From positions 1 to 24,212 of the IMG/VR virus record IMGVR_UViG_3300034107_000256: a stretch of 24,212 nucleotides of DNA, one strand, 5' to 3'. Each line of letters starts with the position of its first letter. Position 1 is the first letter of the stretch. Made by a program: the position numbers and the translations under genes. A model generated the notes under the pieces. It was given only the letters and a program-made list of their open reading frames with translations, made no database searches and had not been told where the DNA came from. Shown here piece by piece: positions 9,449 through 15,813 of the stretch. The DNA comes from a virus.

Positions 9449-10799
9449 ACGGAATCAAAGCCCTTTACTTGCCTCGGTTACCTTAGATACCTCCAATACC
9501 ATGCTTGTAAAGGAGGATATTTTTAACGAGCCGTCACGGGAGAGGCTTGATTTCACAGGGGCAAAGTGGGTAAGGTTCTTCACGCAAAAAGACGACTTTT
9601 TAAAGAGCCTTATAGCCATTGTAAATAATTCGCCGACGTTACGAAGAATAATCGAAGATAAAACAAATATGGTTGTCGGTGACGGCTTTATTCCCATGAA
9701 GGGTAAGGCAAATACATTGCTTACCACGTCAATGAAGGGTGAGGTTATCACCGACGATTCTTTAAATGAAATTGAGGATGTTATTTCACAGGTTAATTTA
9801 CATGGTCAAAATCTGCAGGAGGTTTTGGCTCAACTTGCGTTTGACTATGATGCTTTTGGAAATAGCTTTTGCGAAATTGTTAAAGGCAAAGTAGGCAGCG
9901 AACCATTTACTTATATTTATCATGTACCCGTTTACAACATTGGTATTCGAAAAGCGGAAGCGGATCAGATTATAAAATCGGTTGGCATTTACGACAACTG
10001 GGAAGAAGTGCCACTTACCACCGACGGCGTGTTTTATGAAAGCGAAGGATTTAGAGAGGTACCAATGTACCCAGACTTTAAGAAATTTGAAGACGGAACG
10101 CAAAGAAGCGTTATCCATGTAAAGCAATACGCGGCGGGCTATTTTTACTTTGGCTTACCTGAGTGGATTGGCGCAAAGATGTGGGCTGAAATGGAATACA
10201 GGATTCAGCGATTTAATACAAGTAAATTTGAAAACGGCTTCATGCCTTCGGGTATCATGCAATTTTTCGGCTCAATTACACCAGCTGAGGCAAAGAAATT
10301 GGTTGAAGGAATAGAAAGCAAGTTCACAGGCATGGCAAATAATCATAAGTTATTTGTACAAGTTCTAAGGGACGAAAAATTAAAAGCAAATTGGATTCCG
10401 ACCTCAAAAGAAAATGAGGGCGAATTTTTAAACTTGCAAAACTTGGCAGCCTCGGCGATTGTTGTGGCGAACAGATGGAGCAAGTCACTTGCAGGCTTCG
10501 CAACCGCGGGGCAACTTGGAAGCAATCAACAGATACGTCAGGAAATGGAGTACTTACAAAGTACGGTTATCAAACCGCGCCAAAACTTGATGTTATCTAA
10601 AATCATAAATCCTTATTTAGCCGAAATTGGGCTTTATAACCCAGCCTTAAAAGACGTTCAATTCTCAATATCAAATACTTTACCCGTGTCTTTCATGGGT
10701 GATATTGCGGTTGAGGATAATTTGACGCAAGACGAAAAGAGGGAAATATTAGGTTATTCACCAATCGAAATAAATGAGCCAATTAATACAACCATCTGA
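9390..10799 (+). CDS. Portal protein
   Basis: 469 residues from the ATG at 9390; the frame can be extended to a TTG at 9351, but the ATG with its A-rich upstream (GAGAAAAAAAGCT) is the better start. Portal-like features: the early clip/wing region FFTQKDDFLKSLIAIVNNSP and LRRIIEDKTNMVVGDGF; the FDYDAFGNSFCEIV strand; the conserved 'HVKQYAAGYFYFGLPEWIGA' (the Y-G-x-P-x-W/Y motif before a long helix); 'FENGFMPSGIMQF'; and 'AGQLGSNQQIRQEMEYLQSTVIKPRQ' before the C-terminal helices. Portals form the dodecameric DNA channel at one capsid vertex and anchor the terminase and neck. Here it comes after, not before, the capsid gene. It overlaps the upstream small gene by 59 bases and the downstream adaptor gene by 26. 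Confidence 0.88.
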   Translation: MSQQLKKIQAVPNRNNRVSKRNQSPLLASVTLDTSNTMLVKEDIFNEPSRERLDFTGAKWVRFFTQKDDFLKSLIAIVNNSPTLRRIIEDKTNMVVGDGFIPMKGKANTLLTTSMKGEVITDDSLNEIEDVISQVNLHGQNLQEVLAQLAFDYDAFGNSFCEIVKGKVGSEPFTYIYHVPVYNIGIRKAEADQIIKSVGIYDNWEEVPLTTDGVFYESEGFREVPMYPDFKKFEDGTQRSVIHVKQYAAGYFYFGLPEWIGAKMWAEMEYRIQRFNTSKFENGFMPSGIMQFFGSITPAEAKKLVEGIESKFTGMANNHKLFVQVLRDEKLKANWIPTSKENEGEFLNLQNLAASAIVVANRWSKSLAGFATAGQLGSNQQIRQEMEYLQSTVIKPRQNLMLSKIINPYLAEIGLYNPALKDVQFSISNTLPVSFMGDIAVEDNLTQDEKREILGYSPIEINEPINTTI

Positions 10800-11313
10800 G
10801 GTCATAAGCGGCGGTGTTGCAAGACCAACGCCTGCTGACATACGCCTTGATAAGTCATTGATAAGCCCTCACATTCAAGACGCGGAATACCGTTGGATAA
10901 TTCCCGCCGTTGGCTTAACGTTTTACGATGCCCTTGTTGCTGACAAAGGAAGCTCCACGGCGTTTACATCGACGGCTTATCAAAACCTTTGGAATGACCA
11001 ATTAAAATCCTTTTGCGCCAACGCGGTTCTTTACGAGGCAGCGCCTTACATGGTGATGCAACTTGGAACAAATGGACTTTATACATTGGATAACGAATAC
11101 GGGCAAAACGTGGGCGTTGAAGGATTGAAATTTTATCAAGATACTTTGTTACAAAGGTTAGAGGTAAAGAAGAAAAGAATCAAAGATTATTTATGCACTT
11201 GCGCAACGAACCTTCTTGGATTTATCCCCAGCGCCGTGGGTTGTCCTGAGGCAACTTGCGACGAGGACGAAGAAATATTTGATATTTATAATACAATGGG
11301 AATAGTACTATGA
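10774..11313 (+). CDS. Head-tail adaptor (DUF6712-like)
   Basis: 179 residues, starting 26 bases inside the portal gene. The N-terminal 'ADIRLDKSLISPHIQDAEYRWIIPAVGLTFYDALVADKG' is the hallmark of the gp6/gp15-like helical adaptor family in Bacteroidota phages (positions, 'I..AE..yI.p.lG..fyd.L'), followed by long helices (QNLWNDQLKSFCANAVLYEA, LEVKKKRIKDYLCTCA). Adaptors bind under the portal and close the head before tail joining. Direct position after the portal agrees. The C-terminus has a cysteine-containing acidic tail (VGCPEATCDEDEEIFD). Its stop overlaps the next ATG (ATGA). Confidence 0.75.
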   Translation: MSQLIQPSEVISGGVARPTPADIRLDKSLISPHIQDAEYRWIIPAVGLTFYDALVADKGSSTAFTSTAYQNLWNDQLKSFCANAVLYEAAPYMVMQLGTNGLYTLDNEYGQNVGVEGLKFYQDTLLQRLEVKKKRIKDYLCTCATNLLGFIPSAVGCPEATCDEDEEIFDIYNTMGIVL

Positions 11314-13421
11314 GTGAAATAAAACCAAAGAAAGAAAGACGTTTTTTAAAAACATTGGGGCGCGTGGGTGAAATATTGGTGGAACAAGTATTGCTTAAAC
11401 TGGGGAGTAGCATAATTAGAAAGATTGGAGGTAAAAAAACTTTGCCTTCAATTCTTTTTATATTCCTTTCGTTTACCCTCTTTGCTCAGTACCCAAACAC
11501 ATTAAACAAACAACGACTTGGTTTTCAAACCACGGGCGACGGGCTTGTTTGGCGTGGTGCATTGTCCGACACGGCTTCCATCCAACCGATAAACAACCAA
11601 AACGCCTGGGTTATTCTTGATACCATTAACCTTAAATTTTATACGTTTGATTTTACTTCCAACGTTTGGAACTTGATTGGCGGTGGTTCAGCGGCTTTCA
11701 CGCAACCAGTTGATTCCTTGTTTTTCAATGTCAATGTACCGACAAACAATGTTGACACGGCAAAAATGCGTTGGGATTCGGATTTGGCTACGGTGGTGCT
11801 TGGATTAAATGACAATGTTCCAAACGAATTAGGATTCAAAAACTTTTGGTTAGTTAAGAATCAAACAGGCGCAACCATTACCAAAGGTAGCCTTGTTTAC
11901 GCCAATGGCACGGTTGGTTCGAGTGGAAGAATAACCGTTGCTAAATTTATCGCCAATGGTTCAATAGATGCAAAATATTTACTTGGAATAACGGCTCATG
12001 ATTTGACAGATGGTGAGGATGGATATGTTATTTCGTTTGGCAAAATACGACAAGTTAACACAGATACCTTTGCGGCTGGCGCAATCCTTTACCCTTCGCC
12101 AACGGTGGCAGGTGTTTGGACAGATATTGAACCCATTGCGCCAAATCTTGATATGCCTATTGGCTTTTGTATAAATAGCCATGCAAATAACGGAACAATC
12201 GCAATACGCGTGGCATCGGGTTATAAATTGAATGAGCTTCATGATGTTGCTATTTCATCACCTATTGAAAATTCATCTTTGTATTATAAAGGTGGACTTT
12301 GGAGGGATACAACGGCTGTATTGTTAACAAGTGACACGGCTTCCATGCTTACAAATTACTTGCGCACGGGCACGGCGGCTTCAACGTATGTTCCATTGAA
12401 TACTGAATCTACAATGAACGCAACGCTTAATATAAATGGTAATTTAAATATGGGTAGTGGGGGAGTTATTTCAACGCCTATTTTATCTGCTGGGACAATC
12501 ATAAAACAAGGTGGTACATCGTCGCAATTTCTTAAAGCAAATGGTGATGTCGATTCAAGTACTTATCTTACAACAGGGTCAGCGGCGTCAACTTATTTGC
12601 CATTGACAGGGGGAACATTAAGCGGTGATTTAGGTATTTCTAAAAGTAGTAATTCAATTTTAAGATTATCTTCAGCAGACGCTGGAAGCTATGGAAAGCT
12701 AATATTTTCTTCAAATAATGGTAGTTTTTTAAATTACGGTGCATCGATTGAATCATCTGGTGATGGTGTAGGAGTTGATGTTGGTAGTTTAAATTTTCTT
12801 ACAGGATTTGGAACGGTAAGAACAAATCGAATGACTATAACACCTTCAGGTAATTTAAGTATTATAAATAGTGCTACAATCGGCGGCACCCTCGGTGTAA
12901 CAAGCGCAACGACATTGTCCGCACCGCTTACCGTTAATTCCTCAGCCGTGTTCAATGAGGGCTCAACTGATTCCGACTTCCGCGTGGAAAGTGAAGCCAA
13001 CGCAAACATGCTTTTCGTGGATGCCTCAACAAGCAGGGTGGGCATTGGAACAAACGCGCCGACAAAGACGCTTGATGTTAATGGGCAGGTAAGAATAAAC
13101 ACGGTAACGGCAACGCCGACAAGTTTACTTGGAAAAGATGGAAGCAATGTGGTGGGGGAGGTTACTGACATTAATCAAAGTGGCGTTATGAAAGTAGGAG
13201 GAATAACCGCAACGACTAATAGTGTCGGAAATATAAATGTTGCTCATGGTTTATCTTACACGCCTTCAAAAGTTATTGCGACCATTGCACAATTAAATAG
13301 TTATGTTATAGTTGTCAGGGGCATTACTTCTTCAAATTTAGAATTTAGAATATACGATTCAACCACGGGAGTAGGCTTAGATACTGTGTCCGTTGGGTTC
13401 TTTTGGATTGCTTTTAAATAA
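11310..13421 (+). CDS. Tail-fibre-like protein with buried signal peptide
   Basis: 703 residues, ATGA overlap with the adaptor gene. Residues 1-42 are basic and amphipathic (KPKKERRFLKTLGRVGEILV). Residues 44-60 (TLPSILFIFLSFTLFAQ) form a classic Bacteroidota Sec signal peptide with an FAQ cleavage site. Residues 61-340 are beta-rich (GDGLVWRGALSDTASIQPI). From about 345 there are fibre repeats: 'YLRTGTAASTYVPLN' and, 69 residues later, 'YLTTGSAASTYLPLTGGTLS'. Later comes 'FVDASTSRVGIGTNAPTKTL', common in fibres and surface proteins. The last 70 residues form a putative receptor-binding tip. A fibre with a secretion signal is odd. A TTG at 11442 preceded by GGAGG could start a form beginning at the signal peptide; a fusion of a small protein with an exported fibre is another reading. 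Confidence 0.72.
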   Translation: MSEIKPKKERRFLKTLGRVGEILVEQVLLKLGSSIIRKIGGKKTLPSILFIFLSFTLFAQYPNTLNKQRLGFQTTGDGLVWRGALSDTASIQPINNQNAWVILDTINLKFYTFDFTSNVWNLIGGGSAAFTQPVDSLFFNVNVPTNNVDTAKMRWDSDLATVVLGLNDNVPNELGFKNFWLVKNQTGATITKGSLVYANGTVGSSGRITVAKFIANGSIDAKYLLGITAHDLTDGEDGYVISFGKIRQVNTDTFAAGAILYPSPTVAGVWTDIEPIAPNLDMPIGFCINSHANNGTIAIRVASGYKLNELHDVAISSPIENSSLYYKGGLWRDTTAVLLTSDTASMLTNYLRTGTAASTYVPLNTESTMNATLNINGNLNMGSGGVISTPILSAGTIIKQGGTSSQFLKANGDVDSSTYLTTGSAASTYLPLTGGTLSGDLGISKSSNSILRLSSADAGSYGKLIFSSNNGSFLNYGASIESSGDGVGVDVGSLNFLTGFGTVRTNRMTITPSGNLSIINSATIGGTLGVTSATTLSAPLTVNSSAVFNEGSTDSDFRVESEANANMLFVDASTSRVGIGTNAPTKTLDVNGQVRINTVTATPTSLLGKDGSNVVGEVTDINQSGVMKVGGITATTNSVGNINVAHGLSYTPSKVIATIAQLNSYVIVVRGITSSNLEFRIYDSTTGVGLDTVSVGFFWIAFK

Positions 13422-13427
13422 ACACAC

Positions 13428-14021
13428 ATGAAAAAAATATTATTCCTTATCCTTTTCCCGTTGTATTCCTTTGCTCAGGATACAATAATTATCAAAAAGG
13501 TATTTATTGACCCTGACACGGTCTGGCAGGTAAAGCAAATTACCGACGCGGATAATTCAAGTTTAACCGTGTTTGCTGATTCAAATCTCATTGTCCCTTT
13601 TCTTACTAATGACCTGGTTGACGATTCCCGTAAAATGGCTGATGCCTTAAATTTACTTGAAAGGCAAAACAAGTTTATTGCAAGTGCGAACAAGTTAGAC
13701 AAGTCATTGAGCAACGGAAAAATACAAGGCTCATTTGATTATTTGCAAGAACAATTTAAAAGGTTTTGGACAGGCAATTATCAAGCCATTGCCAACGGAA
13801 CAAAGGTTGTGGCAGGGGCTGAAATATTTGTAAATCAAGCGGGAAGCCTGAGGATTAAAATAGGTGAATCTTTGAATAGACCTTTGGTTATTATTTCTGA
13901 CACGTATGGGTATATTTTAAATTATCCCAATCAAGGCGATAGAATGGTTATTTATTTAACGAAGGCAAATGTTTTCAAAGACTTTGATAATAAATTAATC
14001 CTGAGAAAAACAAAGCAATGA
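13428..14021 (+). CDS. Exported protein of unknown function
   Basis: 197 residues with an obvious Sec signal peptide at 1-17 (MKKILFLILFPLYSFAQ). The mature part begins DTIIIKKVFIDPDTVWQVKQ, contains a helical middle (DDSRKMADALNLLERQNKFI, SFDYLQEQFKRFWTG) and a beta-rich end (AGAEIFVNQAGSLRIKIG). No lipobox cysteine is present, so it is periplasmic or secreted rather than a lipoprotein. It begins 6 bases after the fibre stop and overlaps the holin gene by 4 (ATGA), so it is co-expressed with fibre and lysis genes. It could assist envelope disruption or host-surface modification, or partner the fibre. No family recognised. Confidence 0.75.
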   Translation: MKKILFLILFPLYSFAQDTIIIKKVFIDPDTVWQVKQITDADNSSLTVFADSNLIVPFLTNDLVDDSRKMADALNLLERQNKFIASANKLDKSLSNGKIQGSFDYLQEQFKRFWTGNYQAIANGTKVVAGAEIFVNQAGSLRIKIGESLNRPLVIISDTYGYILNYPNQGDRMVIYLTKANVFKDFDNKLILRKTKQ

Positions 14022-14422
14022 AAGCAACCTTAATAAACTTTTTGCATCTTGGATGGGAAAAAATAACATATGCCATTTGTTGCGGCTGGATATTTTCATT
14101 TTTCATACCAATAAAAGGATTTTTGATATTTACGGTATTCGTGGTTTTTGCCGATATGGCTACGGGAATCCTCGCAGCAAAGAAAGAGCAACAAAAGATA
14201 AATAGCAAAGGCCTTTATCGTACAATGGAAAAAATAGTCGTTTATTTCTGTGGCATCCTGATATTCGAGGGTGCAAGAAATACTTTTTCCCTTCCGTTCA
14301 ACATAACGTACATGGCAGCGTTTTTAATTGCAACGGTGGAGCTTTATTCTATTTCGGAAAATATTAAACGCATAACAGGCGTAAACCTTGGCGTTTTAAT
14401 CACACGTTTTTTTAATCGTTAA
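14018..14422 (+). CDS. Phage holin (holin_4-like)
   Basis: 134 residues with several hydrophobic segments: about 14-36 (WEKITYAICCGWIFSFFIPI), 34-52 (KGFLIFTVFVVFADMATGIL), 70-84 (IVVYFCGILIFEGA) and 92-108 (FNITYMAAFLIATVELYSIS). The charged linker AAKKEQQKINSKGLYRTMEK and the 'ELYSISENIKRITGVNLGVL' end match the phage_holin_4 (toxin-secretion/lysis holin) family. It permeabilises the inner membrane and times lysis. It overlaps the exported protein gene and is followed by a small gene and the amidase, forming a lysis cassette. Confidence 0.85.
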   Translation: MKATLINFLHLGWEKITYAICCGWIFSFFIPIKGFLIFTVFVVFADMATGILAAKKEQQKINSKGLYRTMEKIVVYFCGILIFEGARNTFSLPFNITYMAAFLIATVELYSISENIKRITGVNLGVLITRFFNR

Positions 14423-14432
14423 AATAAATAAT

Positions 14433-14726
14433 ATGCAGACTAATTTAAAAGAAGCATTGAAAAATGCAGATGGAATAAAGTCACCAATGGGTGATGTGGC
14501 TTGTTACTCAATGAACTTTGCGGAGCTGGCAAGTGAAATAAACGTTCATCTTGAGGGCAACAAAGTTAAATTCACCTGGCGCGAATATATCCAACTTGCT
14601 CAAATCATTTGGGACAAAATAAAGGAGACATCCAGGGAATGCGCTGGAAAGGAAATTGAGGTAAAATTGCCAGCAAAATTATCAATCGTAGGTGCGGCTT
14701 TCGCATTGATTGGATTCAAATTATAG
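14433..14726 (+). CDS. Small protein within the lysis cassette
   Basis: 97 residues, 10 bases after the holin gene, with leader TTAAAATAAATAAT. It is mostly helical and charged (FTWREYIQLAQIIWDKIKET) with a hydrophobic C-terminal segment (KLSIVGAAFALIGFKL), which could be membrane-seeking. No family recognised. Its place between holin and amidase suggests a lysis accessory (antiholin or spanin-like), but one C-terminal hydrophobic segment is weak evidence. Confidence 0.65.
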   Translation: MQTNLKEALKNADGIKSPMGDVACYSMNFAELASEINVHLEGNKVKFTWREYIQLAQIIWDKIKETSRECAGKEIEVKLPAKLSIVGAAFALIGFKL

Positions 14727-14759
14727 GCGCAGACGATTCGCTACCTTATGCGGCTTACA

Positions 14760-14785
14760 GGGCGGTGCATTGACTTGCATCGCCC
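14760..14785 (+). terminator. Hairpin before the endolysin gene
   Basis: GGGCGGTGC at 14760-14768 pairs with GCATCGCCC at 14777-14785 (9 bp, one G-U pair as + strand RNA), loop of 8. Only a weak T-tract (TTAAAAATATT) follows. It lies in the 75-base gap between 14726 and the amidase ATG, the largest gap in the late cluster, and may be an attenuator, a processing site or a weak terminator. Confidence 0.45.
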
Positions 14786-14801
14786 TTAAAAATATTAAAA
14801 T

Positions 14802-15464
14802 ATGAAAGCATCTAAATTTTGTGTTTTCCTTGACGCGGGACATGGAGGAATTGACTCAAAGAAAAAGTTACCTTACAATTATACGACTTACCCGTCAAAG
14901 TGCGCTCAGCATAATAACGCAAAATTCCACGGTTACGGGTGGTTCTTTGAAGGCGTGTTCAACCGCGACGTTGCGGCAAAGATTGAGCAGTATTTAATTG
15001 ACTGGGGCTTTTCCGTGGTACGCGTTTACGATCCTGTCTTGGATATTTCATTGACTAAGCGCGTGGCGAAGGCAAATATTAACGCTCAAAATTACGAAGA
15101 TTCGTTGTACCTCAGCATTCACGGTAATGCGGCAACGTCACCCAACGCAAGGGGTTTTGAGGTGTTTACGAGCAAAGGTAAAACAAGGTCGGACATTTAC
15201 GCGGAGTTTCTTTTCAAAGAGGTTCAGGAGGCATTCCCTAAATGGGTGTATCGCATGGATACAACGGACGGCGACAAGGATAAAGAAGAAAGCTTCTTTG
15301 TTATTACTCAAACCAATATGCCAGCGGTGCTCAGTGAAAACGGCTTCTTTACAAATTACCACGATGCTTTAATGATGTTTGACCCTGTGTTCCAAAACAC
15401 GTTGGCTTTGTCTCATGCAAGGGCGGTCGTGGATTACGCGAAAACGCAAGGGGTAATCTTTTAA
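14802..15464 (+). CDS. N-acetylmuramoyl-L-alanine amidase endolysin (Amidase_3)
   Basis: 220 residues with the complete family-3 amidase zinc site: H14 in LDAGHGG, E50 in GWFFEGVFNRD, H107 in LSIHGNA, and catalytic Glu179 in VLSENGFFTN. It cuts the bond between muramic acid and L-Ala in peptidoglycan. There is no signal peptide or cell-wall-binding domain, so it is a single-domain, holin-dependent endolysin. It is the last gene of the + strand late cluster, after the holin. Start codon ATG is preceded by A-rich AAAATATTAAAAT. Confidence 0.93.
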   Translation: MKASKFCVFLDAGHGGIDSKKKLPYNYTTYPSKCAQHNNAKFHGYGWFFEGVFNRDVAAKIEQYLIDWGFSVVRVYDPVLDISLTKRVAKANINAQNYEDSLYLSIHGNAATSPNARGFEVFTSKGKTRSDIYAEFLFKEVQEAFPKWVYRMDTTDGDKDKEESFFVITQTNMPAVLSENGFFTNYHDALMMFDPVFQNTLALSHARAVVDYAKTQGVIF

Positions 15465-15466
15465 AT

Positions 15467-15495
15467 AAAAAAAGGGCTGGTTCAAATGCCAGCCC
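15467..15495 (-). terminator. Intrinsic terminator ending the - strand arm
   Basis: GGGCTGG (15474-15480) and CCAGCCC (15489-15495) form a 7-bp perfect stem with loop of 8. On the - strand it is followed by T7 (15473-15467). On the + strand no T-run follows, so it mainly terminates the leftward transcripts between the converging arms. Confidence 0.85.
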
Positions 15496-15528
15496 CGATA
15501 TACACATCAACAATTTAACAAATGATAA

Positions 15529-15813
15529 TCAATCAATTATAAGTTTTATTAGCTTTGCGGCTGATTCTTTCAGAATATCGGTTTCCTTTGAATGATAAAG
15601 TTGGTAACAAATGCTTACCATTCGTTCCTTATTCATTGATTGATAGGTGGGCATCGTCTCGGGAATCAAAGGATTAAGGTAAAAATTTATTACCGATTGT
15701 TTGCTATTTACCGTGTCGGCAAATCTTATCGGAGCTGGGCGCGCGTTAAAACATCTTTGCGCTTCCTTCCATTGTTCATTGGTTAATCCGTCTGTTAATT
15801 CGTTATTTTTCAT
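15529..15813 (-). CDS. Hypothetical protein
   Basis: 94 residues; last gene before the convergent terminator. It overlaps the preceding 32-residue gene by 11 bases. The leader AACTAAACAAAACAAAGCAAG upstream of the ATG is a near copy of the one before that preceding gene. The protein is hydrophilic, with a helical C-terminus (ERMVSICYQLYHSKETDILK) ending in AAKLIKLIID. No family recognised. Confidence 0.75.
   Translation of the reverse strand: MKNNELTDGLTNEQWKEAQRCFNARPAPIRFADTVNSKQSVINFYLNPLIPETMPTYQSMNKERMVSICYQLYHSKETDILKESAAKLIKLIID

Follow-up and report, generated by a model that had tools for sequence, protein, structure and literature searches.

The prevailing view is that tailed phages make and attach their tail fibres in the cytoplasm. 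PblA and PblB, tail proteins of streptococcal prophages, are set free by lysis and are not known to use a signal peptide; the protein considered here, termed fibre1, would resemble them as a phage fibre-type protein acting at the host cell surface. With the tail fibres and receptor-binding proteins that carry an S74 chaperone (Pfam PF13884) it shares the fibre slot, a repeat-rich body and a variable C-terminus, but it differs by a predicted Sec signal peptide, which the known relatives in this slot lack. Large fibrous, adhesin-like proteins of type V secretion systems combine a conserved N-terminal extension, ESPR (PF13018), with a canonical signal sequence (PMC8151025). Fibre1 shows the same bipartite architecture; however, it has no match to PF13018 (E<0.1), its extension comprises about 44 instead of 25 residues, and a C-terminal translocator is missing. 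Phage T5 encodes the exported superinfection-exclusion lipoprotein Llp, whose gene adjoins that of the receptor-binding protein (PMC9586334). The cassette described below is likewise phage-encoded, predicted to be signal-bearing, and located beside a receptor-binding-type fibre gene, but Llp is a small lipoprotein, whereas the small protein SP3 of the cassette has about 180 residues and no lipobox, and here the fibre itself bears a signal. No paper on signal-bearing tail fibres was found among the papers searched. A conserved cassette of such fibres, carrying a sequence mark of host O-glycoproteins, raises the question of whether phage fibres are deployed in the envelope or whether virions are finished outside the cytoplasm.

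The window, i.e., the whole stretch of 24,212 bases analysed, is a linear IMG/VR virus record and probably a fragment. Its tail and head genes are followed by the genes for the portal protein, a DUF6712 protein, fibre1, SP3, a holin and an amidase. The gene of the DUF6712 protein in the portal-proximal slot (10774–11313, plus strand, as are all features given here; Pfam PF20459, E=6.9e-9) lies directly upstream of the fibre gene, and its stop codon overlaps the fibre ATG as ATGA, as the earlier note had read it; the fibre reading frame extends from 11310 to 13421 and encodes 703 amino acids. SP3 is encoded at 13428–14021, and domain matches identify a holin (Phage_holin_4_1, 14018–14422), which is the first of the lysis genes, and an N-acetylmuramoyl-L-alanine amidase endolysin (14802–15464). 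The nearest capsid relatives in a phage collection belong to Bacteroides and Elizabethkingia phages (21–23% identity), and on the sole basis of these distant relatives the host phylum is likely Bacteroidota. The phages that carry these fibres form a family from lakes and probably infect Bacteroidota. One contig of a relative, L202, was binned in a metagenome-assembled genome of Actinomycetales, probably as a stray phage contig or contamination.

Residues 119–326 and 531–612 of fibre1 match annotated tail or fibre proteins with 28–46% identity, while a sequence search against the PDB returned no match. Relatives were found on 209 viral contigs with the whole fibre as query, and on 405 by alignment of the N-terminal part, which is conserved; the C-terminal part is hypervariable. 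Its gene also ranks with the most variable ones (39–58% identity, with most neighbours >90% in the two closer genomes), as expected for a receptor-binding protein. In the complete genome G004 (39,266 bp, with a 127-bp end repeat) it is the only fibre-like gene recognised, and it may thus simply be the virion fibre. The protein could then be an ordinary virion fibre which is nevertheless exported, folded and possibly glycosylated in the periplasm, and joined to tails at or after lysis. The hypervariable C-terminus, the single fibre-like gene of G004, and the position after portal and DUF6712 genes, as in two cultured phages, speak for this view, whereas the other signal-bearing neighbour in the window, SP3, has no assigned function, and the papers searched contained no precedent. 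We know of none for tailed-phage fibres matured outside the cytoplasm, and regard this alternative as rather unlikely. The two cultured phages, Elizabethkingia phage TCUEAP1 and Bacteroides phage BS-TP3, match the window in gene order, and their fibres in the same slot lack a signal. Fibres of other phages which share the middle domain are also devoid of a signal (that of zth2-2 was not resolved).

The N-terminus of fibre1 comprises a 44-residue basic extension (11310–11441), followed by a hydrophobic core and c-region (11442–11486) with a predicted signal peptidase I cleavage site, A59|Q60. Conservation of the hydrophobic segment LPSILFIFLSFTLFAQ at residues 45–60, to which the earlier note had drawn attention, exceeds chance: of the 88 distinct homologous N-termini compared, 87 retain it, the set being limited to starts 50–90 residues ahead of the conserved motif NKQRLG. 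Position –1 is occupied by alanine or glycine in 87 of these 88 N-termini, and position +1 by glutamine in 83 and by serine in four; the 88th reads SFAC. The charge of the n-region (7–11) and the mean Kyte-Doolittle (KD) value of the core (2.7) in the homologous N-termini agree with a Sec/SPI signal peptide, the core being 14–15 residues long. Residues 1–44 of fibre1 carry a net charge of +8, so that the description of this segment as basic and amphipathic holds for its basicity; amphipathicity is weakly supported, since 3–6% of shuffled sequences reach the hydrophobic moment of the best windows. Extension, core and A|Q site share one frame in 84 distinct homologues, L095 excepted. Every intact homologue reads the extension in frame, and the segment is under purifying selection (pN/pS 0.22, as compared to 0.36 for core and c-region and 0.25–0.29 for the adjacent mature part), and is therefore translated. 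It did not occur as a separate gene in any of the loci examined. In some relatives a similar mature protein follows another type of extension and core (GNKRQ, KKRET), and the core sequence is also replaced in AYA|S variants; the architecture is retained throughout. The hydrophobic segment was thus not missing from close relatives, but it is absent from the slot fibres of the two distant cultured phages. A helix is predicted for residues 7–38 of the extension with low confidence (pLDDT about 60), and the structure model of the fibre N-terminus (pLDDT 43) was too poor for use.

Judged from these sequence features, the N-terminus of fibre1 is one long Sec signal peptide of about 59 residues rather than the source of two protein forms, and the signal is best read as directing the protein to the host envelope. 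The proposal of a tail-fibre-like phage protein with a Sec signal is hence supported by the conserved signal-peptide architecture. The N-terminus might instead be an uncleaved membrane anchor or a tail-attachment segment of a protein that stays cytoplasmic or bound to the inner membrane and ends up in virions. While the extension is indeed more conserved than expected for the n-region of a signal peptide, a core of just 14–15 residues, a small –1 residue in all but one of the 88 N-termini, the signal peptides of the neighbouring proteins and the enrichment of a motif typical of non-cytoplasmic proteins (see below) make this alternative improbable.

The earlier note had also suggested that GGAGG (11427–11431) and TTG (11442–11444) serve as ribosome-binding site and start codon of a second, exported form, besides the form initiated at ATG 11310. 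Both sequences are present, GGAGG being located 10 nt ahead of TTG, and nucleotide-level constraint exists around the TTG, but neither sequence is borne out as a translation signal. The codon is ATA, TTA, CTG, GTG or ATG in relatives, a TTG-initiated form would have an n-region without any lysine or arginine, and the in-frame, selected extension is at odds with two starts. Moreover, the constraint continues downstream and fits an RNA hairpin that would sequester GGAGG. Production of two forms from ATG 11310 and TTG 11442 is therefore considered very unlikely. The drop in synonymous diversity at codons 38–51 of fibre1 is apparently due to the hairpin.

The core of the hairpin (GATTGGAGGTAAA-AAAAC-TTTGCCTTCAATT, 11423–11453) consists of 13 bp and a 5-nt loop, followed by a T-rich run, within an extended stem of about 11402–11468; its 5' arm contains GGAGG and its 3' arm the TTG. 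The predicted structure has an MFE of -24.1 (z -3.9), and in 38 variants it is stronger than in a codon-preserving null (mean z -3.1). Compensatory changes occur at three pairs (AU to GC, CG to UA, and AU to GC). Shuffled alignments were exceeded with respect to cells paired, double-change cells and covariation score, but not in the number of covarying pairs, giving the hairpin moderate covariation support. It is present in one copy per genome, and absent from relatives with the other extension type. With 13 bp and a T run, but only three G-C pairs as compared to 5–7 in GC-rich terminator-like hairpins elsewhere in the genomes, it resembles a weak intrinsic terminator placed just before the fibre-lysis cassette. 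A search of positions 10700–15600 against Rfam yielded nothing near the gathering score. A convergent terminator was rejected, as there are no opposing genes nearby, and so was programmed frameshifting: on sequence inspection only, the A-run does not fall in a –1 slippery phase of the zero frame, and no slippery site was seen to be conserved. The fibre frame of L095 is interrupted close to the A-run in the loop, either by a sequencing error or by a real frameshift.

The signal of fibre1 has counterparts in the proteins encoded next to it. Many relatives contain an inserted second fibre, fibre2, with a canonical signal peptide in all 34 of 34 cases and a Peptidase_S74 chaperone domain in both members tested. 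Among the distinct cases listed, the protein preceding the holin almost always bears a signal peptide; in SP3 of the window the canonical signal peptide MKKILFLILFPLYSFA|Q suggests export. In L064, L067, L078 and L101 the pre-holin protein is missing and the fibre gene directly precedes that of the holin. On the strength of these predictions, the export signal is a property of the cassette. SP3 has no confident family or fold match, fold searches returning nothing at E<=0.001. A role of SP3 as a tail-fibre-specific chaperone was rejected, since SP3 types track fibre2 but not the C-termini of fibre1.

Modification of the Bacteroidota O-glycosylation motif D-S/T-A/I/L/M/T/V is confined to non-cytoplasmic proteins, and the motif is enriched in Bacteroidota (PMC12871550). 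Its observed-to-expected ratio is 2.59 in fibre1 and 2.25 in fibre2, whereas 137 other proteins from these phages have a ratio of 1.12 and the two signal-less slot fibres 0.77 and 0.91. Fibre1 of the window contains eight D-S/T-x sites, at residues 87, 104, 135, 149, 333, 342, 683 and 691. Motif counts are not phylogenetically independent across homologues, so that Fisher p-values are inflated, and part of the motifs stem from repeats (SDTAS).

The single reading frame, the signal-peptide architecture, the cassette-wide signals, the hairpin and the motif enrichment are supported at the sequence level. We consider it slightly more probable than not that this receptor-binding-type fibre is exported by a long Sec signal peptide, glycosylated, and active outside the cytoplasm. 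All of the sequence evidence fits a path of Sec export, cleavage at A59|Q60 and O-glycosylation in the periplasm, whereas actual export, cleavage and glycosylation, like the role proposed below, are inferred. A receptor-binding-type tail fibre would have acquired an unusually long signal peptide, consisting of the 44-residue extension, the 14–15-residue core and the A|Q site. Late in infection, the host Sec machinery would export fibre1, and after cleavage the protein would be released into the envelope together with SP3 and, in many relatives, the S74-bearing fibre2. The exported fibres may be decorated at D-S/T-x sites by the periplasmic O-glycosylation system of the host, and they may occupy or mask the receptor, such that competing phages are excluded or progeny are kept off receptors on debris. 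The hairpin at the junction of extension and core probably influences how the fibre-lysis cassette is transcribed or translated. As to the role, our leading guess is receptor masking or exclusion, completion of virion fibres outside the cytoplasm being its main rival. A point against this explanation is that no outer-membrane export signal, which would take the fibre to the outer face, was found: fibre1 contains no T9SS sorting domain (NCBIfam, Pfam), and most homologues have no lipobox. Export by the T9SS or as a lipoprotein was rejected, given the lack of a sorting domain and the presence of SFA|C in L167 only. The signal peptide of that protein (L167, 319–1398) ends in SFA|C and may represent a lipoprotein variant.

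In L156 (G004), a 580-aa protein encoded at 12326–14068 has a long C-terminal addition; its counterpart in related genomes has 151 amino acids.

Three consecutive signal-bearing proteins, one of them a fibre, are also encoded by an unrelated 73-kb phage contig (L192, 2756–7507; L274, 4001–8750). This fibre contains 14 motifs, with 3.8 expected; of five relatives without a signal, four have no evident excess, and that of L277 contains 11 vs 7.4 expected. It is possible, although we suggest it tentatively, that a class of Bacteroidota tailed phages uses Sec-exported receptor-binding fibres coated with host glycans by the periplasmic O-glycosylation system, either as secreted exclusion factors or decoys or as virion fibres completed outside the cytoplasm, with an RNA hairpin controlling the export-lysis cassette. 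The second of the L192 proteins has lookalikes with an RYWVGGG-type start in L275 and L278 which lack a signal, as read from the translations, not aligned.
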